DNA of 64,000 bases. Origin: Paramacrobiotus metropolitanus (lineage: Eukaryota > Tardigrada > Eutardigrada > Parachela > Macrobiotidae). Below, piece after piece: positions 24,369 to 44,152 of this stretch. How positions within the stretch are numbered: position 1 is the first letter of the stretch; each line of letters opens with the position of its first letter. The stretch is from contig NW_026570237.1 in the NCBI RefSeq assembly GCF_019649055.1, positions 1,584,766 through 1,648,765 on the forward strand, read 5' to 3'. Both the position numbers and the translations under genes were made by a program. A model generated the notes under the pieces. That model did not search any database, was not told where the DNA came from, and was given only the letters and a program-made list of their open reading frames with translations.

Positions 24369-27300
24369 TGCCTCTGGGCGGGAGTCCGAGCCCCTGCGAA
24401 GGACCGGCCTCATACCGCTCCAGTGCCCGCTCCGCACACGACCCTATTGGGGTCGGTGGCTGCGCCTCGGTGGTGTCCGATGACGAAGGTGTCTCGGTGC
24501 CGCGTTCTCCTCCGGACCCGTGGTGGCGATACAACTCACGGCCGAAATCCGAAGGTCGGTCGGTTGTGTTGTTGGACCGGTGTAGGCATCTGTTGGTCGT
24601 GTCCGTAACGGCGAAAAAAGTAAAAAAAATAGTGTTATTCCATCTATCTCTCTCTCTCTAGTAAAAATAACATCACAATTCCTGGTGAGCAGGTTAATGA
24701 AAAAGATCAATAAAATTGAGAACATCATTTCGAGATTAGAAAAAGTAAACTCAATGTCTTTGGTCCGGGGCTTTGGGCCGGGTGCTTATTCCGACTAGAG
24801 CTCGTCCGCTCACGGGGGCTCCAGTCCACTAGAAGTCCGGTCATCTAGGTCCGAGGCATCGGTTCTCGGGATACCCAATGGTACCGGTTAATTCACCGAG
24901 GGTCGGAGGTTCGACCCTCGAGGGTCAGAGGTTCGACCCTATTGACTTCGGGTAAAGGGTATGGATCTCCATTGTCGGGTGTGAAACGGGCGTGAAACAC
25001 ACTGTTCGACTGGGATCCTCCGGTAAAAGGTCGATTGGAACCTTCTCAGCCGGGTAAGACAGGTCGTACTCACGTCCAGCCGGGGTTCATAGGGTAAAGC
25101 TAATGGTGAGGCACTGTCGCAATCGCGAATACCGTAAGGTACCCTCTCTAGGTGCGGAATAAGACCTATTGGGTCTATTGATCGGTGGATCCTCCGGGGA
25201 AGTCCGGTGATCCGAGGTTTGACGCGGGCAAAAACCGTTATGTTATGTCCTGTCGCCTATTGGGCAACAAGGACCGGTTAATGCCTGGTTTCCATAAGGT
25301 TGAATGGTCAATGGTATAGTCGCTGTGCGGGAGTCCGACCCTGTGTCCGGTTGGCTTCAAGGTTTTTGAAGTCCGATAGTAGCCTCGGTGACCGAAGGTC
25401 AGCTCCGGTTGTAAAATCAGAGTCGAAGCTCAGCCTCGGTTGCTGAGTCTAAGTCCGTTGGCAGCCTCGGTACTCGAGTTAGAGTCCGGGTTGTACCCTC
25501 GGCTGCTCTGGCAAATGGGTATAATGATGTTCCGCTCGGCTGAAAATCTTAAGTTCGTCTCCCGTCACCTATTGGGTAACTCGGAGGAGATGATTGCCGG
25601 GAAAAGGGTTCGAGGGTCCGAGCCCGAGGGTCGGAGGTTCAACCCTCGAGGGTCGTTGATTCCAAGCCTCGGCTGTGCTGATAAGTGCTGATAAGTCACA
25701 GTTCCGCGATATGCTGGGTGTTCCGTCCGATTGAAATCCCAAGTCCATCCGTGGTTATCTATTGGATAACTAGGAAAGGGTGGATTGCGGACTTGAAGGT
25801 TGAGATCCGAGGGTCGGAGGTTCGAGCCTCGAGGGTCAGAGGTTCCGAGCCTCGGTATCCGAAGGTCTGATGGTCGTTCCATCTCGGCAAAAACCCTTGT
25901 TAACGGTGTAGGTCGCCTATTGGGCAACTCTACCGAGGGTCTCGCCGGTAAGGTAAAGTTGCTGCCCGAGGCAGCCTCCGTGTCCGGGGTAGCCTCGGTG
26001 GTGAGGTAGTCAGCATTCGCTAAGGCTGGTCCGAAGGCATTCTGCCCGGGCAAAAACCCTTTTTAACGTCTCCCGTCACCTATTGGGTAACATGGAGAGG
26101 GTGAATGCCTCTGGACAAGGTCCGAACAAGTATCCGAGGGTCAATTAGCCTCGGTGTCCGGGGGTCCGAGCCTCGGTAACGAGACTGGCCCAACATGCTC
26201 TGTTGGGAGTCCGCTTGATGCTGGAGATGTCCACCGGGTGACTAGCAAAAATCATGCAGGAGAGGCTCCTCGGCGGCTACATAAGACCTAATTGGGTCTA
26301 AGCCAAGAGGTAGACACTCTAAGTTTTAAAGACGGAATCCATGCTGGTCCGTTCCTCGGCGGATCCCGTGCCTCCACTTAGGCGGAAACACCCGGGATGC
26401 CGGAATGATGTGGGACTAAAGGCCTATTGGGCCTGTTGGCGTAGTTATGGGCGTCCGTAGCCTCCGTTGGGGGTTCAGTCATGTCGGACGCGAAGGAATG
26501 CACGGTATATCCTTCCGGTGACCACGGTCCGATTCGCGGTAAAATGGTCATGCCGGTCACTCATACCATTACTCCAACACAGCTTCGTGAGTAGGGGTAA
26601 GGGCATGAGTGTGCCCTAATGTCCCACATCTTCCGTTCCGTTCCGGGGTGGAAGGGAGGCCTATTGGGCCTCGATGGGCATCCACGGTAAGGTAGAGATC
26701 GTGGTTATACGCGATCTGAGGAGGCTTGCATCCTCCGAGGGTCCTTCTGCCGGAGTGACAGGCCGGTGGAGCGAAGCGGGTCGCGCCGCGCAGCACCGTC
26801 CCGTCGCTTTTCGTACGACGGATTCCGCCGGAGTTATGCTGCCGAGGCTTATTGGGCTCTCGTGCTGACTTCAAATAAAGGTCAGTCAGCCAGCTATTAC
26901 TCCGATTCCCGGGGTATCCATGGGTCTGTTGGCAAACATGGTGCTGAAGACGGCAGTTGCTTCTTCGGCAACATGTTAGCGGAATCCTCTTGGGTTGAGT
27001 TCCGGAAATAGGTTGGTCGTGCGGGTCGAGTGGTCAGGAGATATCGCTTCCCGGTCCAAACGGTCCGCATTCGGTTAGGGGTTAAGAGCCTATTGGGCTC
27101 CTAGGGTCAGAATTATGGAACTGTATGTCCACCGGGTCCTTCTGCCGGCTGGGTACGAGCAGGAGTACCCGGCAGATCATGCTGGGGACTTCTGTCCGAC
27201 CTCCTTACGTGCGAAGGGTCCGATACCGAGGCTGTCACCAGGGCCTTGCTGATATAGGACGTTTTCGCTGCCTATATCCACGAGGTCCCGGCTGGTAGGG

Positions 27301-28879
27301 TTCGGGGGTAAGAGCCTATTGGGCTCTACGGTCCAAGTTACGGAACTAATCAGCCGGGAGTCCTCTGTCGGAGGGACCTGAACAGGGACAACTGTGTTTC
27401 GCGCAGTTGTGCTTGTCCAGTCGCTATTCGTACGATTCGTCCCGATGTGACGTTCCATGGTTCACGTTTTCTTCCAGGGTTAGCCTCCAGGATCCTTCTG
27501 CCGGAGAGGCTGACGAGAGATGAACTGTATAGTCACAGTTCACCGCTAGCCAACCACTATTCGTGCGAGTTATCCCAGTGAACTATGGTTTCCTTCAGGT
27601 TCGACCCTTCTAGACCGAGGGTCGGAGGGTTGGACATCGGGGTATCCCTATTGGGGTCTACTCCCTAAGTCAATGGTGGGTCGGGATTCTACCACGCCCT
27701 ATGATGTTCCCTTCTAGCTCCGGGGATAGCAGGTCGGCGGAGTCGCTGATCCAGCTGGAGCCAGCTAAGCGTCGGGGGTCGGCTAACCCTTTAGTTCGGT
27801 TGCATCCCCTCGCTGCTTGGCTCGGTTCGCCTCCTGACATTGTCACCGGAGACCGGAACATTCCGTTTGGTTCATCCAGGGGAAGCCTGGGGAGACGTCC
27901 GGTACGATTCAGGCTGAACTCGTACTTATCGGGTCTATCCGAGGGATCCATCCAAGTTCGGTTCCAGAGTCTTCTGCCGGAGTGGATTATCCGTGCAGAA
28001 CAGCAGATCATGCTGATCTGCGCGGAGAAACCGCCTTTCGTGCGAAGGTCCGGACTAGCGTGGTTTAGGGGGCTTCTCTTCCAGAACTACGGTAGTCCGA
28101 GGGTTGCCGGTTTGGTTCTCCGCTACTGACGACGAGGTCTGAGTCTCTGCCTTGGTCGTCCGCAGGGGATCAGGCTCCGCTAACTTCTGACGGCCTATTG
28201 GGCTCCTTCCCTGGAACCTATTGGGTTCGCGGGAAAGTTATCGAGGGTTCATGTGCCATGTCCGACTTCGCTTCAAACCGTCCATTTCCGGAGGGTAAGG
28301 TGAGATCCATATTTTGGTGGTCCTGGCCAGAGCGGTCAGGTTCCTAGTCGGCCAAATCTGCTCTGGCCAGGGCCTAAAGGTTCATCAGGCCTAGCTGGGC
28401 ACTTGCCTCGGAACCTATTGGGTTCACAAGGTAGTTGTTGAGCCTTTCATGAGGTGAAGTCCGGTCAGTTCCACTTCTTTGGACTCTGTCTTTCGATCCG
28501 AGGTATTTCCGTTCGCGCGATGTAGGTAATATCGCTTCCCACGTCGGAGGGACGGAACTTAGAATTTTCATCCGCAGGTAGAGGCCTATTGGGCCTCAAA
28601 CCCCGGAGCCTTTAGGGTCCGGTGAGGTATCGAGCAATCTGCTCGGATCGAAAGACAGGTTGGTCAGTCGTGGTTAGGTGCGGTCTGCAGGTTGCCTTCC
28701 TCGCTGAGATCACCACGGACAGCCGCACTTGTGGCTGACTCTGTAATTTTTTAATGGTAGCAGAACGTGGTTAACACTGCGATTCCGGGCCGTTTGGGCG
28801 TAGTACAGGGTCAAGTCCACCGCCGTGTCCCTTATTGAGGGTCCGGGTTCGGTAGCTGACTACGGTTGATACGATTTGG
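24369..28879. other. Non-coding 3' region of the LTR element, rich in short hairpins
   Basis: About 4.5 kb between the last open frame and the LTR, with no supported gene. It is GC-rich and built from recurring short words (GAGGGTC, CCTCGG, TTCGA). It holds at least 15 of the TATTG-loop hairpins and several GAGGTTCGA(G/C)CCTC hairpins (24905-24926, 25632-25654, 25814-25836). A copy of the LTR/internal junction sits at 26183-26213. Confidence 0.7.
25162..28597 (-). repeat. Dispersed TATTG-loop hairpins with co-varying stems
   Basis: A recurring motif NNNCC-TATTG-GGNNN in which the outer bases always pair but differ between copies. Examples: AGACC/GGTCT at 25162, GTTATC/GATAAC at 25754, AGGCC/GGCCT at 26420, GAGGCC/GGCCTC at 26656 and 28581, AGAGCC/GGCTCT at 27311, GAACC/GGTTC at 28214 and 28411. 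Further copies lie in the coding half: GGCCCC/GGGGCC at 38548, GGACC/GGTCC at 40493, GCACC/GGTGC at 42520, TGACC/GGTCA at 42568. All have the same orientation; the gene-strand loop reads CAATA. Confidence 0.85.
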
Positions 28880-29250
28880 TTAGGTAGCAGATGTGGAGCT
28901 GACCCACGTCCGTTCATTCCTCGGGTTCTCCAGGCCTTCGACTCGCATCTGGTCTCGCATTTGTTCCACCAGAGCTTCGGTGTGTCCGAGCAGTGCGTGC
29001 ACTTCGGTTATCGAAGGGTTGGGAGGAGGGTTGGTCGATGCAGCCAAAGCCCCCGTAGTTGCGGTTGCTAAGGCTGGCCCTCTTTCCGAGGCTGGAGTCT
29101 CGGAGGTTGACTTCCGGGCTTTGAGTATGGCCCGGGTGTCCTGGATATACTGTTCCAGCTCCTTCATCTCCGAGTTCAATCGGGTCAATTCCTGCGCAAA
29201 GTTAGGATCGCTCAACTTGAGAGCTTCGATCTTGCGCTGGACGAGGCTTC
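28880..29250 (-). CDS. LTR element, small coiled-coil frame, unrecognised
   Basis: This frame overlaps the end of the 348-codon frame by about 38 bp in another register and has no ATG, so it may be reached by a frame change. The first third (LTRLNSEMKELEQYIQDTRA) has heptad spacing typical of a coiled coil. An Ala/Thr/Pro-rich linker and a second helix-like stretch follow. No known domain. It is the last coding frame before the 3' region. Confidence 0.45.
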
Positions 29251-30258
29251 ATTCGCTTTCAGCTTCCATAAGACCCAGTGTGAGTTCTTCCGAGGGTCGA
29301 ATTTGCCTTCGCGATCCGGCTGAAGATGCAACCGAAGTCGGTTCAACCGTAGTTGCGGTTGCCGAAGGTCTGGCTGTGGAAGGTCCGGGTGTCGAGGGTT
29401 CAACCGTGGTTCAACCGTCGAGGGTCCGACCGTCGAGGGTCCGACCATTGGTTGTGCCGGAACTACCTCCGCCGATGATGTCGGAGGCTTCGGTCGTTTC
29501 AGAAGATGAACCGAAAAGGCTTTCGTTCCGTCCTCGTAATATCGAGTGAACGGAGATGGCGTCCGTTGACGTTCCGGTCGAGCCGTCGCTGATACCACCG
29601 GAGGCATATTTGTGCCGTCCTGACGTGGCGCCGCCGGTAAAGTCGGCTGCTGCGAGGCTCCAATTGGTCCAGTGACCATGGGGTATCCCATCAGAGGGTT
29701 GACCGCGCCGCCTTGTGGCTGGTTCATACCCGTCTGGTTGCACCATTGGGTGAACATGGCGAACATTTGGTTCGGCATGGGATTCATCCCGGCTTGAGTC
29801 ATCAGCGGCTCCATTGGGGCCGGCTGGATGCTCGTTACCGTAATCGGGATATATGGTAGCGTCGGTGGCATGACTGGTCCGGGGATGAATGGCCCCGGTA
29901 GAAGTGGCGGGCGGATCTGACCTATTGGGTCGATCGGTACTGCCGGTACGTTCTGACCGGTGGCCGCGCTCACATTCACCAAAAGTCCGGTTTCGTCGAG
30001 CATAGTGCCCGGTGGCAAGGTCTGGAGGGGGATCGTCCGGGGTTGAGTGACCATCCGTGACCCGACCGTTAAACCTGCCAAAGAATCTGCCGCTATGTTC
30101 GCATGCGGATTTGTTACCTGTGGAATAAAGGTTTGGGTGGCCGAACGCGTTTCAGCTCGGGAACCCGATCGGTCGTGCGGGTACGGCTGAGATCGTCGGG
30201 TATCGCGTCGGCTGCTGTTCGATCCGCTCGATGGAGGGTCTCGTCGTCGGTCAGACAT
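29212..30258 (-). CDS. LTR element, extra 348-codon frame after integrase, unrecognised
   Basis: The frame starts at ATG 30258 and lies in the position where some retroelements carry an env or other accessory gene. The N-terminus is Arg/Ser-rich. The middle is Pro/Met/Gln-rich (MPNQMFAMFTQWCNQTG, GPFIPGPVMPP) without membrane segments or signal peptide, so it does not look like an envelope protein. DPIG occurs once, encoded by one of the TATTG hairpins. The C-terminal third has tandem PSTV and LRQPQLR-like repeats made of the element's short words. Function unknown. Confidence 0.5.
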   Translation of the reverse strand: MSDRRRDPPSSGSNSSRRDTRRSQPYPHDRSGSRAETRSATQTFIPQVTNPHANIAADSLAGLTVGSRMVTQPRTIPLQTLPPGTMLDETGLLVNVSAATGQNVPAVPIDPIGQIRPPLLPGPFIPGPVMPPTLPYIPITVTSIQPAPMEPLMTQAGMNPMPNQMFAMFTQWCNQTGMNQPQGGAVNPLMGYPMVTGPIGASQQPTLPAAPRQDGTNMPPVVSATARPERQRTPSPFTRYYEDGTKAFSVHLLKRPKPPTSSAEVVPAQPMVGPSTVGPSTVEPRLNPRHPDLPQPDLRQPQLRLNRLRLHLQPDREGKFDPRKNSHWVLWKLKANEASSSARSKLSS

Positions 30259-30432
30259 CGTTATGAGAGGCTATTGAGATAAAGGAGAAACGGCTCGTTA
30301 GCATTCTGATAAGGCCAAATAAGTTCAACTGAAGATTCCATGCACAACTGAAGAGGTTCCATTCCGACACCAAAGGTCCATTCTTAACTATGTCCTAGCT
30401 AAGCCCTAACTTATTCTAGGTTAACTATGGCC

Positions 30433-31050
30433 CTATGTTTTTGGTGTGGTGGGTTTTGTTGTTTTGGGCTTTTTTGTGGGTTTGGTCGATTTGACCGGTT
30501 CTGCCCGTCCTTCAGCGATCCTATCAAGGATGTCCTTATGTGCTTCATCTTCGGCCACTTGAGCTTCTTCAAGTACCTCCTGAGCCGTTAACTTAGGCTT
30601 CTTGACCGTCCCGTACTTCCGCTTTGGAGCCGGGGGTTCAACCGCCTTATCGGTTGAAACTGCCGGGACCGGTGTGTCAAGTCGCTTCTTCACCGGTTTC
30701 TTTGCTTTTACCGGCTTCTCCTTCGGTGCCTTAGGCTCCTTAGGCTTGGTTGAGGTAGCCTCGGGTTTTGCGGCTAAGTCCACCGACTTCTCCGAGGTAG
30801 CCTCGGATAATCCGGCTAAGTCCTTGGGCTTCTCCGGGACAACCTTGGGTTCATCCTCTATCACAGCCTGCTTCTGCAATTCCTGCAGGGCTGGTGTCTC
30901 GAAGTCCGACGGAGGCTTCTTCCTCGGTCGGCCGCGTTTTCCTTTTGGTTTGGGAGGTTCCTCCGGACTTAGTTTGTCGGACGGACCCTTATTGGGGTCC
31001 AGAACTGACGTTAAGTCCGGTTTCTGAGGCTCTTTTGCCGGTTCCTTCGG
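30433..31050 (-). CDS. LTR element, Lys/Pro-rich AT-hook tail after integrase
   Basis: This open frame overlaps the last 60 bp of the integrase frame, shifted by one base, and has no ATG of its own at the start. It begins with acidic/Pro-rich residues, then has KRGRPRKKPP, a classic AT-hook core (RGRP) that binds the minor groove of AT-rich DNA. About 150 residues of Lys/Pro/Glu repeats (KPKEPKAPKEKPVKAKKPVK) follow. I infer that it is the integrase C-terminal tail separated by a frameshift, possibly helping target AT-rich DNA such as the satellite; the targeting role is speculation. Confidence 0.6.
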   Translation of the reverse strand, partial: PKEPAKEPQKPDLTSVLDPNKGPSDKLSPEEPPKPKGKRGRPRKKPPSDFETPALQELQKQAVIEDEPKVVPEKPKDLAGLSEATSEKSVDLAAKPEATSTKPKEPKAPKEKPVKAKKPVKKRLDTPVPAVSTDKAVEPPAPKRKYGTVKKPKLTAQEVLEEAQVAEDEAHKDILDRIAEGRAEPVKSTKPTKKPKTTKPTTPKT

Positions 31051-32434
31051 CTAAGTTTGCCTTTCGGGCCCGGGTATTGCGAGCGGGCTGACCCTCATGG
31101 GGGTACGGCACCGTTGCAAGGCTGTTACCCGGGGTTACCTCGGCTTTCTTTTGGCCATAAGATCGGGTTATCCGCCGGCGCTTGTTGCTCGGATGATGCT
31201 TACATCTATCCACGGCGACGACGTCCTCCTTTCCGGTTTCGACGTTGCGGAGCCAAAGGTTGTTGGGTCCTTTATAGTTGAGTACCGTCCATATTCCATC
31301 GTACCGTTCCTTCCTGGTAGGGTCCTTATTGGGATACTCTACCAGGACGAGGTCTCTCTTCTGGAAGTCCGGTACCGATTTCTTCTTGTTGTAAAGTTCG
31401 GCGGTTTTCTCGAAGGCTTCGTCGATGTTTGTCTTCGCGATGTCGTGAGCCCTCTGAAGCCGTTCCTTCATCCTTCTGATGTATTGTTCCTTGTCGGTGT
31501 ATTGTTCCGGTGCGTTGGTTCCGGTGATGACGTCCTGGGGTATGGTCATCTCACGTCCGTACAGCATGTAGTAGGGTGAGAACCCGGTGGTCGCATGTTT
31601 CGCTCGGTTGATTCCGCATACTACGTACTGTAGGTTCCGGTGCCATCGGTGATCATCCTTGGCGTCGCATTCCTTCCGAATTCCATCCCATATCGTCTGC
31701 ATGGAACGTTCGACTTGGCCTTGACCCTCTGGGTGGTAGGCTGTTCCGAAGGTATGCTTGATCCCGAAGATCCTAGCCACTTTGGCAAAGGTCATAGCCG
31801 TAAAGTGGGATCCTTGGTCGGTATGAAGGTGGGTCGGCATGCCGTACTTTAGGACAACATCCTCCACAAAGAATTTTTCAAACTCCTTTGCCGAGTTAAT
31901 CTTGGTCGCTCGGGCGATGGTGAACTTGGTGAACTGGTCGGTGACGACCGCGATGTATTGGTATCCTTTCGACTCAGTCCGAGGTAAGGGTCCTTTAAAG
32001 TCCGCGTAGATTCGGAACCATGGTTCACCAACCTCCATCTTCTGGAGTTTACCGGGTGGTTTGGTCCGAGGGTTGTTCACCAAGGTACACCGGGGGCAGT
32101 TATCCACGTAGTCGTGAATGTCGGATAGCATCCGGTCCCAGTAGTACCGAAGCTTCGCTGCCTCCAATGTCTTCACGCGGCCGAAGTGATTGCCGGTTTT
32201 TCCGTCGTGAAGTGCTCGGATGATGCCTTTCCGCATAAAGAGCGGGACCACGAACCGTCGTTCCAACTTGGTGTTGTGGGTGGTCAGCCGGTACAGTAGG
32301 CCTCCGCTTATCTGGTAATGTTCCAACAATGGGGATTTATGGTCCAGCTGGTCCTGGTTTTCCAGCTCATCGATCTTCTTCCGGAGGTGAGGGTCCCGGA
32401 GTTGCAGTCTGCGTAACTCCTTGTTGGACTCCAT
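30989..32434 (-). CDS. pol: LTR element integrase
   Basis: This is the integrase that joins retrotransposon cDNA to the chromosome. The zinc-binding HHCC module is H76-X6-H83-X29-C113-X2-C116, and the catalytic triad is D145 (YADFKG), D206 (HTDQGSHF) and E242 (GQGQVERSMQ), a DD35E arrangement. A chromodomain is not evident. ATG 32434 is the first Met, but the frame stays open upstream to the palindrome at 32598 through a Glu/Pro-rich linker, as expected if it was once part of a longer Pol. It is followed by the AT-hook frame in another register. It diverges head-to-head from the RT block. Confidence 0.9.
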   Translation of the reverse strand: MESNKELRRLQLRDPHLRKKIDELENQDQLDHKSPLLEHYQISGGLLYRLTTHNTKLERRFVVPLFMRKGIIRALHDGKTGNHFGRVKTLEAAKLRYYWDRMLSDIHDYVDNCPRCTLVNNPRTKPPGKLQKMEVGEPWFRIYADFKGPLPRTESKGYQYIAVVTDQFTKFTIARATKINSAKEFEKFFVEDVVLKYGMPTHLHTDQGSHFTAMTFAKVARIFGIKHTFGTAYHPEGQGQVERSMQTIWDGIRKECDAKDDHRWHRNLQYVVCGINRAKHATTGFSPYYMLYGREMTIPQDVITGTNAPEQYTDKEQYIRRMKERLQRAHDIAKTNIDEAFEKTAELYNKKKSVPDFQKRDLVLVEYPNKDPTRKERYDGIWTVLNYKGPNNLWLRNVETGKEDVVAVDRCKHHPSNKRRRITRSYGQKKAEVTPGNSLATVPYPHEGQPARNTRARKANLAEGTGKRASETGLNVSSGPQ

Positions 32435-32597
32435 CGGCTTTTCTTCTTCTTCATCCTCGGGTTCGCCTTGTGAACCCGGAGCTTCCGGTCCGTTAACCTC
32501 GGTAGTCCGTACCTTTGCGGTTCCGACCCTCGACTCGCCTTGTGAGCCCGGATCGTCCGGTACGACTACGTTAATTACCCGTACGTATGGGGTAGAC

Positions 32598-32650
32598 GAA
32601 ACCGTAATTGCGGTTAACTCAGCGGCTGAGTTAACCGCAATTACGGTTTC
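32598..32650. repeat. Perfect 26-bp inverted repeat at the Pol orientation switch
   Basis: Arms 32598-32623 and 32625-32650 are exact complements separated by one G. To the left all genes read minus (integrase); to the right RT reads plus. On each side the arm is in frame with its neighbour, reading AELTAITVS, followed by STPY on the integrase side and HPAD on the RT side. Confidence 0.95.
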
Positions 32651-32969: not shown

Positions 32970-33034
32970 CTACAGGCCAAACCGTCAACCGTCTTCAGCT
33001 CCATACCGAGGATAAGGACGAAGACCGACAGCCC

Positions 33035-35775: not shown

Positions 35776-36243
35776 TAACTCAGCCCGTCGTTGGTTCGAG
35801 CCTCCATTCTGGGGTTGTTGGGCTTCTTGCGAAGGTTCGTTGCCGGACGATCCACCTTTTGGGGGTTCGTCCGGGGATGTATCGATTCCTACCTATAGAA
35901 CCGAAGGGTCGAAGCCGATATCATTATCGTCGTCGTCATCGGAAGTATCCGATGAGTTGTTATCTGATTGGTCGGATGGCTCATTATCGGAGTCAGTGTC
36001 CGGTGAGTCACTTGTGCTCTGTACATCCGAGACTTCCGAGTCCCAATCTCCGAATTCGTCGGCTTCGCCTTCCTCCGCTGTTCCGGCGGATGGTCCAAGT
36101 AGACCGTCAGTAACCCTAATTGGGGTCTGCTGAGTCGGTCCTTCCCACCTTCCCGGTTCGGGAGGTCCAAAGGATGGTGGCCTACCATGCTCCCAGACTT
36201 CTTCGTTCCTAGTTCTGAGGGCTTGGACGATCGCTCCGTTGTT
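35776..36243 (-). CDS. LTR element, acidic Asp/Ser linker downstream of an in-frame TAA
   Basis: After the TAA at 36246-36244 the same minus frame stays open for about 115 codons. It becomes strongly acidic (SDNNSSDTSDDDDDND) before a TAG near 35896, and then is open again to the junction at 35780, where it reads QRRAEL. That last AEL is also how the inverted RT linker begins (AELTAITVS), so this frame and the RT linker were probably contiguous before rearrangement. Confidence 0.5.
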
Positions 36244-36765
36244 TTAATGGCAGATCGGGCATTCTAAAGCCATGTACTGTTGGTTTGGGGCTTGTGCCCG
36301 TGTATTAGCCAGGCGGCCACCGTTTTGCGGGTGCACGGCCTCGGCTAGCCTTACTTTTTTGGCCTGGTGCCAATTACAAGGCTCGATCGGAGGTTCAGTG
36401 TCCGGCACGACCCTAGTTATGCGGGTGTCTTCGCCGTATCGACTCCAAAAGGAGGCAGTATCCAGGGTACCGAAGTGGTAAGGGTCCCGGAAGTGCCACA
36501 TAAGGCGTCGGCCCAGTTCGTGGGACTTTATCTCCAGTAACGCCGGTATGGGGAGCTGATGTTCCACAAATTGTGCGTGGAGTACAATCCGCTCTTCTTC
36601 CCACTCGATGATTTCCTCTTCTAAGGCTTCAGTCAGGTTGATTACCTCTTGGCATTCCTCCCTTGCGGCTCGGATCTGATCATCCGTCCTTGCGCCGACT
36701 CGATCGAGTGCGAGTCTTATACCACCGTCCGGGTTTCGAGGAGGTGTCGAATGCCGGAAAACCAC
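36244..36765 (-). CDS. LTR element, helical linker after protease, unrecognised
   Basis: The frame overlaps the protease frame by about 50 bp in another register. The central part (NLTEALEEEIIEWEEERIVL) is predicted helical and acidic. It later has Trp- and His-containing stretches (LMWHFRDPYHFGTLDTASFW) and ends CPICH. It has no clear homology and probably belongs to Pol between protease and RT. It starts without ATG if the overlap is a frame change. Confidence 0.5.
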   Translation of the reverse strand: MVFRHSTPPRNPDGGIRLALDRVGARTDDQIRAAREECQEVINLTEALEEEIIEWEEERIVLHAQFVEHQLPIPALLEIKSHELGRRLMWHFRDPYHFGTLDTASFWSRYGEDTRITRVVPDTEPPIEPCNWHQAKKVRLAEAVHPQNGGRLANTRAQAPNQQYMALECPICH

Positions 36766-38480
36766 GTTCGGTACCTTTGGTTAAGTATACCAGAGGCCGA
36801 TGCCTCTGGTATCGGGATAGACTTTAGTATCCCTCGGACTGGTTCCAATCGGGTCGTCCGTACTTTCGCCAAGTATTGTTCGATGGCATTATGGATTTGC
36901 AGCTCCGTTACGAGGCTTCGTTCGGTGTCCGAGCATTGCGGGCAGATCGGGGGTCCGGGGTTCATCGGGTGATCAAGCCGATTTATCCGAGCCTCATTCG
37001 CTGCCGTGCCCGATGCCTCTGGTATCGGGATAGGCTGCACTACACCCGAAGATGGGTTCCGCCGACCCTCGTTGGGGGTCGTTGGCGCCCGGGTGAAGAC
37101 AAACTTGGAATGCAGGTAGTCGCATCCAAGAAGTACAGGAACGTCCGAGTTATTGGGTTGGACGTGGAAGGTATGGGGGCTGGTGAATCCTTGCAAGGTT
37201 ACCGGTACGGTACAGCAATGGGTTACCATAAAGGCGACTTGTCCGCCAACACCGAGTATCTTGGTGAAGTACCCCAGGGATTCAAGTTTAAGATTGTTGG
37301 TCCGACAGAAACGCTCCTCTATTAGGGATGTTTCGGCTCCGGTGTCCAACATGGCCGTGGTTGTAACCGGTCCAATTTGAACTTCATGTGTCCATGCCCG
37401 GACCACCTTCGGTCGTTCGGTGGACTGTAACGGTTGGATCGTTACTTCTCGGATGGTCACTTCGACCGGAATTAGGGTTGTCGTTGATCCGCCGGGGACG
37501 CTATTGGTGTCTACACGCGGCGGTAATAAGATTCTGTCCAGCCTCGGTAGGTCTACTCCGTCTTGTGGGTTGACCTCCGAGGGTCGGTATGGACTTAGTC
37601 GTTCTGCCGGGGCTGGTAAGCCTGGTAGCCCGGATGGAACTTCCTTAACCGAGTGACTCGCCTCCGGACGGTTAGCTACTCCGTCCATTAACGATTCGGC
37701 GGTTTCCACCGGGTATGTCCGGCTTGCTATCCGTTCTTCCATGGATGGTTGCCCCTCTCGTAAAGTTGAGAGGCTATATTGCATGTTGAAGAACGTACGC
37801 GATCCGGTTACAGTTCGTGCCGGTTGTCGCTGGAAGAGGTCCGCTTCCTGCTGCAGACAGTAGGCGGGTACCTGTTCCTCCAAAGGTACTGCTTCCCAGT
37901 CTTCGAAGTACTCCGTTACTTCGTCGGTCGGAGCCTCCGGCCGTCTACCTGGTCGGCCTACCAAGGACGGTTCAGGCGTCATTCTGGCGTCCTGTGAGGT
38001 TGCGGGTCGGCGTCTCGAATCTCCACTTAGCCCGCGGCTCGTAATGCCTAATTGGGCACTGAGCCGTCCGGGCAGCCTGGTGACGTTTCTCGTCCCGGCT
38101 AGTCGGGTCCGGTTTCTCCGGCCGACATCCCCGGCTTCACCTTCTGGGCCTGGGGGTCCGGGCACGTTCTGTGTCCCGGCTGCCGTTCGGATCCAAGTTC
38201 CTTGGCCGATCCTCCCAGGTACCTGTTCTGGTCCGGGAGCCGCATTATCGGCGTGGCGAGGTTCGGGTCGATTCTCCGAGTATCCGAACCGGGGATGTTC
38301 GGCGCCGAGTTGGGCTGCCGTCCCCGCCGCTAAAATCCTAGCGGACTCGCTGACCGTTGCGGAGGCTAAATCCTCGTTGAGGTTCCGAGTTGTATCCAAA
38401 GGGTTAATCCGGTTAGTAATGTTATCCTTATTCGGTGGTTCTGTTGGATGGCAGAGGTCGAATGAGTCACCGGAGCTCAT
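36717..38480 (-). CDS. pol: LTR element aspartic protease frame
   Basis: This is a retropepsin that would cleave Gag-Pol. The active-site motif is MLDTGAETSLI with D379, followed by the flap-like ILGVGGQV and by VLLGCDYL, which matches the usual hydrophobic-G motif near the retropepsin C-terminus. About 370 residues of Pro/Arg-rich disordered sequence precede the domain. IPIPEAS occurs twice in the C-terminal tail, reflecting a 21-bp direct repeat (36798 and 37012), and a perfect 11-bp hairpin lies at 36787-36812. ATG 38480 is near the end of the preceding Gag frame, in a different register. Confidence 0.85.
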   Translation of the reverse strand: MSSGDSFDLCHPTEPPNKDNITNRINPLDTTRNLNEDLASATVSESARILAAGTAAQLGAEHPRFGYSENRPEPRHADNAAPGPEQVPGRIGQGTWIRTAAGTQNVPGPPGPEGEAGDVGRRNRTRLAGTRNVTRLPGRLSAQLGITSRGLSGDSRRRPATSQDARMTPEPSLVGRPGRRPEAPTDEVTEYFEDWEAVPLEEQVPAYCLQQEADLFQRQPARTVTGSRTFFNMQYSLSTLREGQPSMEERIASRTYPVETAESLMDGVANRPEASHSVKEVPSGLPGLPAPAERLSPYRPSEVNPQDGVDLPRLDRILLPPRVDTNSVPGGSTTTLIPVEVTIREVTIQPLQSTERPKVVRAWTHEVQIGPVTTTAMLDTGAETSLIEERFCRTNNLKLESLGYFTKILGVGGQVAFMVTHCCTVPVTLQGFTSPHTFHVQPNNSDVPVLLGCDYLHSKFVFTRAPTTPNEGRRNPSSGVVQPIPIPEASGTAANEARINRLDHPMNPGPPICPQCSDTERSLVTELQIHNAIEQYLAKVRTTRLEPVRGILKSIPIPEASASGILNQRYRTWFSGIRHLLETRTVV

Positions 38481-38485
38481 CGACC

Positions 38486-38911
38486 TTAGGCGTTTCCCTG
38501 GGATGTACCCGGGACAGGCCCGCCAACTGCCGGTTGGTATCCGCCCGGGCCCCTATTGGGGGCCGGGGACGGCGGCAGTTGCGGCCGTTGGGCTGGTGGC
38601 GGGGTTGCCAATGGGGGTCGACCACCATTCTGGGGGTTCTCTCCATTTCCCTGGCCAGGCTGCCGGTTAGGGCTGCCTTGGCCGCCGAATTCGCCGGCAT
38701 TCTGCTGACGGGGGCGCGGGGGTGGTACGATGTTCGGGTAGTTCTGATTCGCCGAGCCTAACGGCCATCCATTATCGTACCGGTACCTCCAGTCCAGGTA
38801 CCATCTCCGGTTTGGGTTGTCTTCCAGCCGGAGGTTGGCATAGCCACAACTCGCTTGGTTGTGGTGCCCCATAGGCAGTGACCACAGGAAAATATTCCGT
38901 CCTGGGTCCAC
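38486..38911 (-). CDS. LTR element, Gag C-terminal frame carrying half of the zinc knuckle
   Basis: This frame overlaps the end of the main Gag frame, shifted by one base. It carries GHHNQASC, the His and last Cys of a retroviral zinc knuckle whose first two Cys (CGHC) are in the main frame. A Pro/Gln/Asn-rich tail with NRGPGGYQ follows, ending just before the protease frame. Function with Gag is inferred. Confidence 0.6.
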   Translation of the reverse strand: MDPGRNIFLWSLPMGHHNQASCGYANLRLEDNPNRRWYLDWRYRYDNGWPLGSANQNYPNIVPPPRPRQQNAGEFGGQGSPNRQPGQGNGENPQNGGRPPLATPPPAQRPQLPPSPAPNRGPGGYQPAVGGPVPGTSQGNA

Positions 38912-40800
38912 TGGAAGAACTTGGCTTCCATCCGATCGACGTAGGTTGCCTGCTGGCGAGCCTCCTGCTGTGGTGTCCGAGGCTGCCGTTGCACATTCTG
39001 GGGCTGGCCGCCTTCACCCGCGCGGTTGCCGAAGTTTCCGCGGCCGCGATTCCCGCCGCCACGTCTTCCGCCGGAGCCACCATATTGTGAGGCTCCACCG
39101 CGTCCATATCCGCCTCCGAAGCCATACCCCTGGTTCTGAGGTTGGCCGTAGCCGGAGTTCTGGCCGTAGCCCTGTTGGGGCTGGCCATAGCCGGGGCTCC
39201 GAGGCTTGCTGTAGCCCTGTTGGGGCTGGATGTAGCCGGAGTAACCCTTGCTCTGTGGTTGGCCGTAGCCGGGGCTCCGAGGCTGACTCGGTTGGCCGCT
39301 ATTTTCATAGGCTGGCGGCGTGACCGTGGTCCCTGTTGGGGCTCCATTCAGGTTCATCGCCGCCGTTGCCGCCCAAGTCTGTTCGATCTGACCACGGGCC
39401 TGAGGGGGTGGTGTCGCCGGAGGGCTCTGTCGGTGAAGCCCGGGTTGCACGTTCTGGTAACCTGGCGAGTTGGGTTGGATATATCCGGGAGCCGGTTGAG
39501 TCACAGGAACAGGAGTCGCCGTCCTGACAGTGATGTAGTTGGTGGAGTTGCCACTTTTAACTACCTGGTACATTGGCTTTCCCCGGGTGAAGTCCCGTAC
39601 GTAATCTCGGAGCTCACGTGTCGTCTTCGGCATTCGGACGTCCAGCGCTGCCCGAAGGATTGGCTCCGTGACGTTCGTCCGCAGGTAGAAGACCGCCAAT
39701 TCGTCAGTGAGGTTGCCTCGTTGTTTGAGATTTGTGATGGCGTCATAGTACTGCTCGGGGGTTTCCTGCCCCAGCATGTACTTTCTGGTGGCAATGTCCG
39801 CGACTGCCGTGACCTGTTTGTCAGGGTCCATGAACCGGGCCGCAAATTGCTGCAGCCAGTAGTCGACGGTCCATCCGTTTTCTTCGGGTTCCAGGGTTGA
39901 CTGGTTCTGATACGATTCTAGGGCTTGTCCAGTTAGGGCGCCCTCCAGCTCTGTCATAAAGGCGACGTCCGTTATTGCGACGTCGTCAGCCTCCGAGCGA
40001 TAGATTCGCCGGATCTTTGTGATCCAGCCTTCCACCTTGGCCCCGTCGCCGTTGAACTTCGGCAACTCTGCCCGATTCTTCCGAGCCAAGATCCGGTTGT
40101 TCCGCTCTTCGTATCGGCGCCGGCCTTCTTCATAGCCTTCTTGTCGGGCTTGAGCAATGTCTTGCTCATCGGGTGGTGGGGTCTGACGGGGTTGGACCAC
40201 CGGCATTGCCTGTTGGGCTACCGGGGGATTCCAAGCCACTGGGTAGGCCGCTTGCTGGTTCTGCGCAGCCGGGGCGGGTTGAGGTGGGTAGGGCTGTGGT
40301 TGAGGTTGAGGGTATGGGTTACCAGGGGGTGCCGGTTCGGGCTGTCCAGGTCCGGGCGGAGGATTCTGCGCTCCATACCCCTGGTTCGGCGGTTGGTTCG
40401 GTGCCACATACCCAGGCATCCTCTGAAGGACTCTGTTGTGGTCAAGCCACATCCCTGGTGGTATAACCACGTATTGGTCAGCCTGGGGCACCGGACCTAT
40501 TGGGTCCATATTGCCTTGCCGAGGCTGGTAGGGTCCACTGCCAACAGCGCCGGGGCCAACCAGACCTATTGGGTCACGGTTGTCTGGCCGAGGTTGCTGT
40601 GGTGCGTTATCCGGATATCCGGGGCGTACCGGGTCAGCCCAATTGCGCTGCCCTGCCGATACGGGTTGCACTTCGATCCGCGGCGGGTACGTGTTCTGGG
40701 AGCCTGAACGTTGTCGGTCTCGGTTGGAATTCCCCGAATTAGGTTGTGAGCCTCCCGCCGAAGCGTTCGTCGGCGGTCGGAAGTCCCATGCCAGGTCCAT
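38758..40800 (-). CDS. gag: LTR element Gag, Ty3/gypsy type with Gly/Tyr-rich tail
   Basis: Gag forms the particle that packages element RNA. Residues about 240-400 match the retrotransposon Gag domain: ELPKFNGDGAKVEGWITKIR, a WLQQFAARFMD stretch and the ETPEQYYDAITNLKQRG core. The first 240 residues are Pro/Asn/Gln-rich. Residues about 480-600 are repeats of SPGYGQPQ / GYGQ followed by RGG-type sequence (GGRRGGGNRGRGNFGNRAGE), resembling phase-separating RNA-binding tails. Near residue 639 CGHC begins a zinc knuckle that the frame then loses. It starts at ATG 40800, overlapping the coiled-coil frame. DPIG occurs twice, each encoded by a TATTG hairpin. Confidence 0.85.
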   Translation of the reverse strand: MDLAWDFRPPTNASAGGSQPNSGNSNRDRQRSGSQNTYPPRIEVQPVSAGQRNWADPVRPGYPDNAPQQPRPDNRDPIGLVGPGAVGSGPYQPRQGNMDPIGPVPQADQYVVIPPGMWLDHNRVLQRMPGYVAPNQPPNQGYGAQNPPPGPGQPEPAPPGNPYPQPQPQPYPPQPAPAAQNQQAAYPVAWNPPVAQQAMPVVQPRQTPPPDEQDIAQARQEGYEEGRRRYEERNNRILARKNRAELPKFNGDGAKVEGWITKIRRIYRSEADDVAITDVAFMTELEGALTGQALESYQNQSTLEPEENGWTVDYWLQQFAARFMDPDKQVTAVADIATRKYMLGQETPEQYYDAITNLKQRGNLTDELAVFYLRTNVTEPILRAALDVRMPKTTRELRDYVRDFTRGKPMYQVVKSGNSTNYITVRTATPVPVTQPAPGYIQPNSPGYQNVQPGLHRQSPPATPPPQARGQIEQTWAATAAMNLNGAPTGTTVTPPAYENSGQPSQPRSPGYGQPQSKGYSGYIQPQQGYSKPRSPGYGQPQQGYGQNSGYGQPQNQGYGFGGGYGRGGASQYGGSGGRRGGGNRGRGNFGNRAGEGGQPQNVQRQPRTPQQEARQQATYVDRMEAKFFQWTQDGIFSCGHCLWGTTTKRVVAMPTSGWKTTQTGDGTWTGGTGTIMDGR

Positions 40801-42070
40801 TTACCGGGGCTCGGAGGTTCGAGCCTCGGGGCTGGTCTTGTCCGGTTGAAATTGATGCTACGGGCCTAGTTCCGGTTGAGAACATTGTTGTTGTAGATGT
40901 TCCTCCGTAGGCCGTAGTCGTTGTGGTAGTTGACTGGGTCGGTGCATTCGGGGTAGCCGTCGAAGTGTTTCGTTCCGGCTCCGGGGCTGTCGGTACCAAC
41001 GGCGGCCTCGGTATAGGTCCAACCGAAGGTTCATTCCGAAGCATTCCGACCTGGTAGATTTGACTTTCGAGAGCCCCCGTTTGACCTGTTGGGTTCAGCA
41101 GGGGGTTGTCTCGACGCAGGTAGTCGTCAATCTGCTGACATTTGTCCTGCTCTTGGGTGGTCCGGTAGGACGGGGGTGGCTCGGTCATGGAATCCTCGAG
41201 GTAAGTCTTTTCCTCCTTCAGGCACGCGACCTCGATGCCCAGGTCCTCTCGTTCCTGGACCAGCTGATTGTACTTGTCGCACAGGCCGGTGTACTTGTTA
41301 GTTACATCCGTGCTGAAGTCGTAGAGTTCCTGTTGGTACTTTAAGAGGCGGTCCTGGTCTATCTGCAGTTGGGTCTTCTCGGACTCTAGCCGTGTAATCC
41401 GGGCTCGTTGGGCCTCAATGACCGCGAGGTTCTCGATGCGGGCCTGTTCGAACCGGGCTGTCTCGTTCTGGAGATGGGTGGTGAGGGCGAGGATCTGCTG
41501 GCCAAGTTGGGCCTGGCATAGCCGAAGGTCTACGGCTATACCCTCCGGGTCATTCTGGTTCTCCCGGAGGTTCGCGTAGGCCGTCCGGAGGAAGTCGAGT
41601 TCCGAATTTAGCTCGCCAATCTCCCCCTCCAGGCCGATGATGCCTTGTTTAAGGTGATGGTTCACCTCGCGGTACTCATCCACCCGGTCAAACATCTTAT
41701 GGAGTTCCGCCGAGCCAGCCTCGGAGTAGCCGAGGGCCTGTAACCGCTGCTCCAAGTCTTCGCGCAGGGTGGCCACTTCGGCCCGAGACTGCTCCAGCAT
41801 GTCCTGGAGTCTAGTAACCTCGGCTTGTTCATGACGGCAGGGCTCCTCAGTTACTTGCAAATGGGCCTCTAACCGTTCGATCTCCTGGGTTAGGTCATCA
41901 ATGACGGTGTTCGCGCGTTCAAGTTCGTCCGTGAGCCTTTTGCGCTCCTGTTTATGCGAAGTCACCGTTTGGGACAAGACATTCTCCGTCGATTCGACGA
42001 TGTTTTGTCCGGCCACGAGCTGGTTTTGCAGCTCGTATAGGTGTCCGAGGTTCGAGCCTCGGTGTTCGAG
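40739..42070 (-). CDS. LTR element, long coiled-coil frame upstream of Gag
   Basis: The open frame runs from a TAG near 42073 to 40739 without an early ATG (first possible start GTG at 42016). Residues 15-290 are almost unbroken heptad sequence (RLTDELERANTVIDDLTQEI, LREDLEQRLQAL, RITRLESEKTQLQIDQDRLL), predicting a long parallel coiled coil. A Thr/Pro-rich tail follows. It overlaps Gag by about 60 bp in another register, so it could be the N-terminal part of a frame-changed Gag. Such a coil is not a normal part of Ty3/gypsy Gag, and I do not recognise the protein. Confidence 0.6.
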   Translation of the reverse strand, partial: LEHRGSNLGHLYELQNQLVAGQNIVESTENVLSQTVTSHKQERKRLTDELERANTVIDDLTQEIERLEAHLQVTEEPCRHEQAEVTRLQDMLEQSRAEVATLREDLEQRLQALGYSEAGSAELHKMFDRVDEYREVNHHLKQGIIGLEGEIGELNSELDFLRTAYANLRENQNDPEGIAVDLRLCQAQLGQQILALTTHLQNETARFEQARIENLAVIEAQRARITRLESEKTQLQIDQDRLLKYQQELYDFSTDVTNKYTGLCDKYNQLVQEREDLGIEVACLKEEKTYLEDSMTEPPPSYRTTQEQDKCQQIDDYLRRDNPLLNPTGQTGALESQIYQVGMLRNEPSVGPIPRPPLVPTAPEPERNTSTATPNAPTQSTTTTTTAYGGTSTTTMFSTGTRPVASISTGQDQPRGSNLRAPVNGPGMGLPTADERFGGRLTT

Positions 42071-42089
42071 GTTCTAGCCGACTGCATTC

Positions 42090-42640
42090 TTACCGTTGAT
42101 GATTTGGATGTGCCCGAGGTCGGCTTCGATGAGTTCGAAGTCCGAGTTGAGTCCCGGTAAGGGTCCTCGGGTCCGGTGTGGTCGCCTTCGGAGTCCCCGA
42201 GGGTCGCTTCGGGTCCGGCGATGTCGATTTCCGGCTGTTGTCCGAAGATTTTAGGTTGTTGCCAGTTGGTTTGGGGCTTTGAGCCAGGGTCAGTGGGGAC
42301 TTAGTCGGTGAACCCGAATTGTGGGTCACCCCCCGGGTCAGTGATACCGTACCCTTCATTTGGTTTGGGCTCATCTGGCCTTGCCTCGGTTTCAGTCTAG
42401 CCGTGCTGCCCTGTTGGGGCTGTACAGGGTCACCCATGTCTGGTGATACCTCGGAGCTACTTAGCGCCGGGCTCGAGGCTCCGTGGTCCGGGGTGATGGC
42501 CGGAAAGAAGACTGGCGAGGCACCTATTGGGTGCACAAGTCCAGCCGCAGGCTCGGAGTTCGCAGTTTGACCTATTGGGTCATGCAGAACCTCCGGCTCA
42601 GCCTGTGGTAGCTCGAGGAACGTCCGGTCGTGTGTGCGTC
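42090..42640 (-). CDS. LTR element, Ser/Pro/Lys-rich frame, unrecognised
   Basis: An open frame without ATG, low-complexity (SPDPKRPSGTPKATTPDPRT). It contains HDPIG and HPIG, both encoded by TATTG hairpins (42568 and 42520). It overlaps the 42572-42886 frame in another register and probably continues it after a frame change near 42640. Confidence 0.4.
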
Positions 42641-42886
42641 CTCGAAGCTATCCTCCGGCGATTGGTTGAAGTCGTTCGCCAGGATCCGCGCATCTCGCTT
42701 CTCCTTGGCCGATTTAGTCGACTGATTGGATTTGTTGGATTTGCCGGACTTACTCGATCGGTTGGAGTCCGACGAGTGAGGCTCGTTACCCGGGCCAGCA
42801 TGACGGAAGGTGTACCCGCCTGCGTTATCCCGTCGGGCGTAGCCTTGGTCGAACTTCCGTTCGTATGGGTTATTTCGACCGGGCAT
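42572..42886 (-). CDS. LTR element, first ATG frame after the 5' LTR, unrecognised
   Basis: This is the first ATG-initiated frame after the right LTR on the gene strand, 104 codons. It is Arg/Asn-rich at the start and then Ser/Lys-rich (SSKSGKSNKSNQSTKSAKEK). No domain. It may be the N-terminus of a longer Gag precursor broken by a frame change. Confidence 0.45.
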   Translation of the reverse strand: MPGRNNPYERKFDQGYARRDNAGGYTFRHAGPGNEPHSSDSNRSSKSGKSNKSNQSTKSAKEKRDARILANDFNQSPEDSFEDAHTTGRSSSYHRLSRRFCMTQ

Positions 42887-44152
42887 CTTCGGTGGTGACT
42901 CTATTGGAGCCTTGAAGTAGCCTCCGGGTTGTCCCTTCGGCCAAAAAGAATCAGACTATCCCTATTGGGGACTTGTCCGAAGCTGATGAGGCTTTTTGCC
43001 TGTTGAAGGTTCGAGGGCCCGGTGGGGGGGCTAAGGTCCGGTGGGGGGCTGAGAGGTCCGGTGGGGTAAGGGGTGTTGATGTGGGTGTGCTTGTACTACT
43101 TGCAACTCAGTACTGTTGTCAATACGGGGTACAGCTTACGTACGTCCAATACTACAGCACTGACCGCTATGACGTCACACTCCGCTAAGTGGTCTTGCAG
43201 ATTACTGCCTACGTCACGATTCTGTGCGCCGCGTGCAAAATTCCAAAAAACAGTGACTCACTACGGACTTATAACATAGGGAATCTCCCCGTTATCCTGA
43301 TTGGTCAGATTTTAATATGGTAAATCGGCCGTCGTGACGTCACAATTAATTTTTAATTTGAATTAATTATTTTTGCCGTGGGCAAATCGGCGAAAATTCC
43401 GGAAAAATTATGAAAAATTATTTTTCACCGACCAAAAATTAATTTAGCCGGGGGAAATTAACTCCCGTAATTTTTCGTAAATTTAGAAAGGTTGTTAACC
43501 GAGGCTCAGAGGGTCTACACCGAGGCTCGAGGGTCCGACCTAGTAAGGCTGGCTACACCCTATTTCCACCCAAAAAGATGTTTTTAAGGCCCGTTTATCC
43601 GGGTAAAAATAAGTTTTAGCCGGCCAAAACTACTTTTGGTCCGGTAAAAATGAAAGTTGCCCGGCTATATCGGGTCTTTAGAGGCTCTACGAGGCTTACC
43701 GAGGGTCAGTCGACCCTATTTACCGGGTAAATCCGCGTGAGTCCGCTTAATGATCCGGTGAATCCCGCGCTGGTAAAGTTGCGGGTGCCACTTAAGGCAA
43801 AGGCGACCCCGATTGATGAGGTTGGGAGGGTCCGCGAGGGTCCGCTGGGTCCGTGCCGTCCGTTCCGTCCGGGGATCCGCGGTAACCGCTAATCAACCCG
43901 GGCAAAGTCCGTCCGAGGGTTGTCTCCGCGAGGAACGTTCCGTCCACGCGCAAGAAGAGGGTCTGCTGAGGCTTTCTGCCCGCAAGAGAGAGAAAAGAGA
44001 CCAGACCGTTCTGGCTGGCGGCGATCAGATGGGGATGGGAACCGTTGGTTCTCCCCTGTCTTCACGTCGGCCGTTTACGGAGATAGGTCTACAGTACTCT
44101 ACACCGTGGTCTCAAAGGGTCCGTTGAAGGAAAACTCAACGATATGCTATCA
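42887..44152. other. LTR element 5' leader, non-coding
   Basis: It lies between the right LTR and the first ATG frame. It contains a G-rich block with three GGTCCGGTGGGG units (43017-43074, plus strand) and an AT-rich stretch (about 43290-43460) unlike the rest of the element. No primer-binding site beginning TGG was found next to the LTR. Confidence 0.6.
43017..43074 (+). repeat. G-rich triple repeat, possible G-quadruplex
   Basis: Runs of 7, 6, 4 and 4 G are separated by 12, 14 and 3 nt on the plus strand (C-rich on the gene strand). They arise from three tandem GGTCCGGTGGGG-type units. Confidence 0.55.

Follow-up and report, generated by a model that had tools for sequence, protein, structure and literature searches.

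A general model of dispersed packaging signals has been set out for single-stranded RNA viruses (PMC6281560), and in satellite tobacco necrosis virus (STNV), MS2 and hepatitis B virus (HBV) multiple loop contacts are described as selecting and condensing the RNA (PMC3593212, PMC6281560, PMC7612645). STNV is reported to carry about 30 stem-loops with AXXA in loops of 4-6 nt, the stem sequence mattering little (PMC3593212), and RGAG loops of the HBV pregenomic RNA are described as dispersed packaging signals (PMC7612645). The retroviral packaging signal Psi lies near the 5' end, and Ty1 Gag prefers Psi-containing RNA in competition tests; how it selects its own RNA is described in the same source as poorly understood (PMC8396678). 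Here we analyse a 64,000-nucleotide stretch of the tardigrade Paramacrobiotus metropolitanus (NW_026570237.1, positions 1,584,766 to 1,648,765; hereafter the window), in which a long terminal repeat (LTR) retrotransposon at 23972-44551, with its genes mainly on the minus strand, carries many short hairpins whose loop is constant (CAATA on the gene strand, TATTG on the plus strand) and whose stems pair in differing sequences.

In the open-access literature we found no retrotransposon with dispersed fixed-loop hairpins, which is not proof of absence, and no paper on Paramacrobiotus together with retrotransposons. For the lineage to which the window element belongs (lineage A), covariation, conservation between copies, strand specificity and folding in context strongly support selection for a stem-loop whose loop is fixed and whose stem must pair but is otherwise free. 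That these hairpins are recognition sites repeated along the sense RNA of a clade of giant Ty3/gypsy-like retrotransposons, read by Gag for packaging of the element's own RNA, is an interpretation that we judge to have an even chance of being right.

Results

A hairpin family with a fixed loop

The original prediction had placed at least 22 such hairpins in the element, and the 8-mer CCTATTGG does occur 22 times in the window, every copy on the plus strand and within the element, whereas 100 dinucleotide shuffles yield 1.3 on average and at most 5, a control of the kind that the prediction had itself proposed and which it withstood; two of the 22, at 27647 and 28194, have just three consecutive pairs and drop out as hairpins. 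When gene-strand U.G wobbles were accepted as pairs and at least four Watson-Crick pairs were required, the element was found to hold 23 hairpins with the plus-strand loop TATTG, four with TAATTG, one with TTATTG and three with TGTTG, the corresponding means in 50-bp local shuffles being 0.125, 0.03, 0.02 and 0.165; a fifth loop tried in the element, TTTTG, gave none. With the four loop variants pooled, these 31 sites are dispersed across 24439-42972 and are densest in the 3' part of the element. A chance origin of the hairpins is rejected by the shuffle counts.

The loop stands out equally when it is not chosen beforehand. TATTG is the loop in 14 of the 56 element hairpins that have a 5-nt loop and a perfect stem of at least 5 bp, the next loops occurring at most twice, and when every loop of 3-9 nt was tested, gene-strand CAATA headed the ranking in each half of the element: a stem of at least 4 bp encloses 12 of its 28 occurrences in one half (p = 2e-19) and 6 of 17 in the other (p = 1e-9). 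Such CAATA hairpins number 11 in 23971-29212 as against 0.02 in 100 shuffles, seven in the remainder of the element (0.04 shuffled) and 18 in another lineage A piece, L019 (0.03 shuffled). Outside the element no TATTG site in the window has more than three pairs, as had been predicted, and CAATA read on the plus strand likewise gives no site exceeding three. A known RNA family was considered and rejected: an Rfam comparison of 23000-45500 gave five matches with E of at most 0.5, all below the gathering score, four of them at a palindrome near 32600 that belongs to an inversion described below.

Covariation between sites

Covariation was assessed on distinct sites picked by their loop alone, the stem being ignored, with pairing partners shuffled by column. 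Among the CAATA sites of the element (n = 45), pairs 1 and 2 are mostly C-G, and Watson-Crick combinations occupy pairs 3, 4 and 5 in 32, 25 and 25 of the 45, against shuffle means of 12.6, 11.3 and 12.6 and maxima of 24, 21 and 22; three or four pair types occur at each of these positions, and pairing is lost by pair 7. Four lineage A copies (89 distinct sites) give 60, 53 and 49 Watson-Crick combinations at pairs 3-5, as against 25.5, 21.1 and 24.6 after shuffling. The CAATA sites of the window flanks (n = 20) have no pair above the shuffle maximum. In sister lineages (B to E, introduced below), every shuffle is exceeded at pairs 2-4 in B (L029, 18 sites), at pairs 2, 4 and 5 in D (L031, 81 sites) and at pairs 2-4 in E for the 46 sites of L028 with a C-G closing pair. 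A shared loop motif on a free but paired stem is found in A, and more weakly in C and E.

An AT-rich stretch of several A copies (L016 at 9658, L023 at 9984, L027 at 5513) carries the TATTG loop on an 8-bp stem with an ACTTAA/TTAAGT core, which indicates that the stem sequence is very free.

Conservation in related copies

Sites were followed through their flanking sequence into 19 other lineage A pieces, giving 162 hairpin clusters, of which the 40 with at least six ungapped rows were counted: a TATTG set of 16 clusters (one mainly TGTTG and one mainly TTTTG; 218 ungapped rows, 28 gapped rows excluded) and a control set of 24 clusters of hairpins with other loops and equally perfect stems (316 rows, 37 gapped rows excluded). 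Departures from the majority base amount, in the TATTG set, to 7.8% for the flanks, 2.2% for the stem and 2.1% for the loop, as compared with 5.9%, 7.1% and 8.1% in the controls, i.e. stem and loop are some 3.5-fold less diverged than their surroundings in the A copies, and those of chance hairpins are not. Unpaired cells make up 5.1% of the TATTG set and 15.3% of the controls; of the 56 such cells in the TATTG set, 34 belong to two clusters whose rows mostly (14 of 18 and 13 of 17) show a mismatch that is a U.G wobble in the sense strand.

Similar comparisons were made in the sister lineages. In B orthologues (nine sites) stem, loop and flank diverge by 2.8%, 4.8% and 15.2% (controls 8.4%, 11.8% and 18.0%), in E orthologues (ten sites) by 6.2%, 10.0% and 11.4% (controls 11.0%, 16.2% and 10.2%), and in D-type copies (13 comparisons, 12 without an indel, some sites being counted in several pairs) by 3.1%, 3.3% and 5.8% (controls 9.7%, 7.3% and 11.3%). 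Between B and C (four sites, one with an indel) the values are 12.5%, 19.0% and 31.1% (controls 10.3%, 18.6% and 17.4%). Two single examples of change on both stem sides were noted: from A-T to G-C between L029 (at 4526) and L030, where the loop also passes from CACATAA to TACACAA, and from T-A to C-G between L030 (at 1683) and L031.

Strand and folding

The hairpins had been predicted to point the same way throughout. In the window this strict orientation holds for the TATTG loop only, the opposite strand having no TATTG hairpin, one with TAATTG and two with TGTTG. Over the 19 lineage A pieces CCTATTGG outnumbers its complement by 299 to 0, and the family hairpins of six sister pieces divide between the gene strand and the other as 14:0, 11:0, 9:0, 13:0, 17:0 and 11:0, with 5:0 and 5:0 in two further pieces (L035 and L036). 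Since recognition in double-stranded DNA would not need a fixed loop orientation, this speaks for a single strand rather than cruciform DNA.

When the sense RNA was folded locally (about 155 nt), the family stems formed with a mean probability of 0.96 (54 sites, 5-6 bp), as against 0.60 for 101 other perfect hairpins of equal stem length (p = 7.5e-10) and 0.80 for the same 54 sites folded as antisense. In five TATTG sites, moreover, an internal mismatch on the plus strand (C.A in four, A.C in one) is a U.G wobble on the gene strand. The likeliest carrier is the sense RNA.

Loops of the sister lineages

The same genome holds related elements at 63-96% integrase identity (90 matches listed; 89 of 1517 candidates scored) and a further group, lineage F, at about 50%. 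The loops of the former, an addition to what had originally been predicted, were read in 10-kb pieces after the integrase, and the enriched loop varies by lineage: CAATA in A, ACANA in B, C and D, and a looser YAMC in E. In B (L029) CACAGAA forms hairpins in 8 of 12 occurrences (p = 9e-15) and CACATAA in 3 of 3; members of the ACANA pattern reach p = 1e-3 to 1e-7 in C and D (L030 and L031), and CAAC, TACC and CACC reach p of about 2e-5 in E (L028). Hairpins with the lineage's own loop and a stem of at least 4 bp number 12 and 8 in B, 9 in C, 13 in D and 17 and 10 in E, with dinucleotide shuffle means of 0.01 to 0.66, and the loops of other lineages stay low. Of the CAAC or TACC hairpins (stem at least 4 bp) in E, 9 of 11 lie within plus-strand open reading frames (ORFs), so the signal is not restricted to non-coding RNA. 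Pieces read later (L033, L034, L035 and L036) repeat the loop patterns, but are relatives of the first ones; L035 and L036 were considered as a new lineage and rejected, being D-like (84-93% identical to L030 or L031 over long aligned stretches), and merely repeat D. The evidence is strongest in A and B and weaker in C, D and E.

Individual hairpin sites

All 31 sites read on the minus strand, and loops are given here in the sense orientation. The original prediction had bounded the family at 25162 and 42974; this range was too narrow, the element spanning 23972-44551 and the first CAATA hairpin (6 bp, 24439-24455), about 70 bp from the 3' LTR, falling outside it. The special cases it had singled out at 25754, 26284, 30983, 36116 and 38047 are all present. 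CAATA hairpins continue at 25162-25176 (5 bp), 25250-25270 (8 bp including two G.U), 25564-25580 (6 bp including one G.U), 25754-25770 (6 bp, the inner pair altered on both sides to TC/GA), 25912-25928 (6 bp including one G.U) and 26074-26092 (7 bp including two G.U). A 5-bp hairpin with the 6-nt loop CAATTA (TAATTG on the plus strand) at 26284-26299 is followed by CAATA sites at 26420-26434 (5 bp), 26656-26672 (6 bp), 27083-27103 (8 bp including one G.U), 27311-27327 (6 bp), 28214-28228 (5 bp), 28411-28425 (5 bp), 28581-28597 (6 bp) and 28829-28841 (4 bp, with a different closing pair).

Further towards the 5' end of the element the sites become sparser and several lie in genes: CAATA at 29919-29931 (4 bp), within an accessory ORF, where it encodes DPIG; the 6-nt loop CAATAA (TTATTG on the plus strand) at 30982-31001 (7 bp), at the end of the integrase ORF; and CAATTA at 36112-36127 (5 bp including one G.U) and, in the protease ORF, at 38043-38060 (6 bp including one G.U; SAQLGI). 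A TAATTG-loop site at 32600-32615 (5 bp) lies within an inverted repeat of about 25 bp at an inversion junction and is a doubtful member. CAATA recurs at 38548-38564 (6 bp) and in gag at 40492-40508 (6 bp including one G.U) and 40563-40575 (4 bp), both encoding DPIG. The variant loop CAACA (TGTTG on the plus strand) is found in gag at 39168-39182 and 39213-39227 (5 bp each), and at 42408-42420 (4 bp). Upstream of a coiled-coil-like ORF, CAATA hairpins stand at 42520-42534 and 42568-42582 (5 bp each). The last two CAATA sites are at 42897-42911 and 42958-42972 (5 bp including one G.U each).

The element and its genes

The element is bounded by a 3' LTR (23972-24368) and a 5' LTR (44155-44551), both on the minus strand and differing at 4 of 397 positions (99% identical), and is flanked by copies of the 4-bp target duplication CTCA at 23968-23971, adjoining the 3' LTR, and at 44552-44555; paired LTRs with a target duplication are what is expected of an LTR retrotransposon. 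It is set in an array of an approximately 160-bp satellite that occupies both sides, at 22600-23970 and 44552-64000 (seen as far as 48000), and many short hairpins occur in the right flank up to 64000. Over 24001-44000 the gene strand has A in excess of T outside an inverted segment, and C in excess of G over most of the element.

The probable Gag ORF (P0060; 38758-40800, minus strand) has no Pfam match and is assigned by its position before the protease, its RGG-rich tail and a zinc-knuckle protein in a sister element. Upstream lies the coiled-coil-like ORF (P0003; 40739-42016, minus strand), for which every Pfam match is under the cut-off and whose sequence is fused to the N-terminal part of the Gag ORF in the annotated relatives P0062 and P0063. 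The aspartic protease ORF (36717-38480, minus strand; PF13975) and the integrase ORF (P0002; 30989-32434, minus strand; PF00665 and PF17921) share the orientation of the probable Gag. The ORF for reverse transcriptase (RT) and RNase H (33035-34984; PF00078 and PF17919) is on the plus strand, within a segment (32421-36133) inverted relative to gag, protease and integrase, and an inverted repeat of about 25 bp forms one of its junctions, near 32600-32650; together these point to a local inversion in the window copy. By its domain content the element is placed as putatively Ty3/gypsy-like. In protein comparisons its integrase comes closest to an annotated protein of P. metropolitanus (94% identity); of the 55 matches, none without this species label exceeds 39% identity in any aligned segment, and alignments of these matches that cover most of the query give 31-32%. 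In other A copies the integrase occupies open frames of up to 1982 amino acids (C58).

After the integrase lies an accessory ORF (P0001; 29212-30258, minus strand), part of which resembles the start of an ORF at 8162-9004 of L032; the accessory ORFs in this position give no Pfam family above cut-off. Four other copies (C22, C73 and two on C68) have about 10.4-10.6 kb between sequences that are some 110 bp apart in the window, at 28784-28894, so the window copy has probably suffered a deletion there. In L032, one of these four, most of the roughly 10.5-kb stretch was read and contains several long accessory ORFs.

Discussion

A mechanism consistent with these observations would have each hairpin consist of a short stem, of any sequence that pairs, displaying the loop kept by its lineage (CAAUA in A; ACANA in B, C and D; YAMC in E). 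An RNA-binding protein encoded by the element, most likely Gag through its RGG/zinc-knuckle region, would read the loop; through many contacts along the molecule, this protein would then pick out, compact and package the element's own long RNA, at the expense of RNA from sister lineages present in that cell. That the loop is kept within a lineage and differs between co-resident lineages points to a reader encoded by the element, different loops in each lineage not being predicted for a host reader common to all. Gag is the best candidate: the tail of the window's probable Gag ORF is rich in RGG, and in L040, a piece of a sister Gag, a single CCHC knuckle comes after an RGG tract, so that Gag-mediated packaging gains weight from this domain structure as well as from the differing sister loops. 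The notion that the window Gag lacks a zinc knuckle was rejected, given that L040 has one and that the corresponding window region (38758-38900) is split over two frames. A piece of lineage F, L039, contains no CCHC motif, but covers the protease region and is uninformative on the F nucleocapsid.

Several observations weigh against this interpretation. The sites are densest towards the 3' end, where retroviral packaging signals lie near the 5' end. Two pieces of lineage F (6 and 4 kb) have no enriched loop (best p = 4e-5, 2 of 3 occurrences), so the expectation that F would have a fixed loop of its own failed, and packaging in the wider group need not use such hairpins. No pair exceeds the shuffle maximum in C (L030, 80 sites), in the B piece L033 (16 sites, with near-constant stems) or among all 257 YAMC sites of E. 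The ACANA and YAMC patterns were picked after viewing L028-L031, the same pieces in which they were first counted, and since thousands of loops were tried, single loops in C, D and E, at p = 1e-4 to 1e-7, are weak and the case for these lineages rests on pooled patterns; the top-ranked loop in E, TGAACCG (3 of 3), lies outside YAMC, and the largest cross-count is of six YAMC hairpins in the A piece L019, against 0.62 in shuffles (maximum 3). B has a second repeated loop, CTCAG, on a near-constant CGAC/GTCG stem in short repeats beside CACAGAA (four sites in L029 at 6779-7171 and ten in L033 at 2204-4052; none in L030 or L031). At a single orthologous A site, changes affecting both sides of the stem are not more frequent than those of the controls (6 of 1090 cells vs 11 of 1580); they are few because the stems hardly change there, and the covariation evidence accordingly comes from comparing different sites. 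In C-D orthologues (three sites) the stem is more diverged than in controls (16.7% vs 6.6%), loop and flank standing at 0% and 9.2% (controls 4.7% and 11.8%). As to folding, C taken by itself shows no significant difference (p = 0.25), and GC content is somewhat higher in the target stems of the A window, B, C and D than in the control stems. A preference for sense G.U over A.C is significant in A only (41 vs 10) and absent in B to E, and 32 of the 41 A cases are one mismatch repeated over copies and hence not independent.

Among other explanations, the most serious is that the same RNA hairpins are read by an accessory protein of the element or by a host protein, and serve RNA export, stability, translation control or the formation of ribonucleoprotein granules rather than encapsidation. 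We regard this as possible, if unlikely. Long accessory ORFs follow the integrase in A, B, D and E pieces, and the 12 that were scanned have 0-7 cysteines, no Pfam family above cut-off and, in a simple hydropathy scan, no predicted membrane helix, on which ground an env-like membrane protein among them was rejected; the 3' concentration of the sites and the F pieces read without hairpins also suit such a reader. Sites nevertheless occur in gag, in the protease ORF and upstream of gag, and a purely host reader would leave the different loops of co-resident lineages unexplained. A coding constraint, by which a repeated peptide would account for the repeated DNA, is practically untenable. It had been predicted that hairpins in genes encode DPIG or something similar, and the TATTG hairpins within window ORFs do read DPIG in 3 of 3 cases; of those with variant loops, two encode QPQQGY and one SAQLGI, and another runs across the stop codon of the integrase. 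The 20 of 23 TATTG sites outside the window ORFs examined refute the constraint as a full explanation, and a peptide does not need a paired outer stem.

Two further alternatives concern the DNA itself, and we hold both to be improbable. The hairpins might be a by-product of repeat growth, spread by tandem duplication or template switching, with their palindromes matched by gene conversion or hairpin-templated repair. Flank similarity does explain part of the family: for 14 of 25 window sites the flank resembles that of one or more other sites beyond the 99% similarity limit, which 11 of 298 site pairs exceed where about three are expected, the sites at 25261, 25921 and 26084 are mutually similar, and the 3' region of B is made of short repeats. 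At the 99.9% limit, by contrast, four pairs, involving 5 of 25 sites, remain, and hairpin repair would keep a palindrome, yet would not be expected to keep a fixed loop on a varying stem or to confine the loops to one strand; duplication as the whole cause was therefore rejected. The sites might instead act as DNA, either as cruciforms or as hairpins in single-stranded complementary DNA (cDNA) bound during reverse transcription or integration. The original prediction had left selection on RNA or on cruciform DNA side by side, and it is selection on the stem-loop that is strongly supported, its orientation speaking for a single strand, most simply sense RNA. Palindromes pair on either strand, plus-strand single-stranded cDNA would also carry the sense loop, and the sense G.U preference is not general; against this stand the strict loop orientation, needless in double-stranded DNA, and the better folding of sense than of antisense RNA, part of which base composition may explain.

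If Gag does read the hairpins, a broader proposal suggests itself, namely that a clade of LTR retrotransposons has evolved a distributed RNA identity code, in which lineage-specific loops are read by a co-evolving Gag and each family packages its own RNA only. We put this forward tentatively, as rather more apt to fail than to hold; under it the switching of loops between CAAUA, ACANA and YAMC would mark the splitting of lineages. Viral dispersed packaging signals are, in our view, hard to spot because their motifs are short and degenerate. The motif of lineage A is visible to the eye and covaries, and one genome offers at least three loop types together with a co-resident relative in which none was found, which makes both dispersed signals and self/non-self sorting directly testable.

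With Ty3/gypsy elements the present one has in common its LTRs, the 4-bp target duplication and the protease, RT/RNase H and integrase domains; it differs from them in its very large size, its several accessory ORFs after the integrase and its lineage-specific hairpins. As with the Psi signals of retroviruses and Ty1, recognition of RNA by Gag through RNA structure is an expected step, but the sites here extend over the whole RNA, are densest near its 3' end and do not form a compact 5' packaging region (a separate 5' signal was not looked for). By analogy, the hairpins would work like dispersed packaging signals and are putative members of that class: as in STNV, MS2 and HBV, there are many stem-loops throughout the genome, with a common short loop motif and stem sequences of little weight. 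Unlike those signals, they are carried by an LTR retrotransposon of about 20-30 kb; the loop of lineage A is nearly invariant rather than degenerate, and sister elements within one host differ in the loop that they display.

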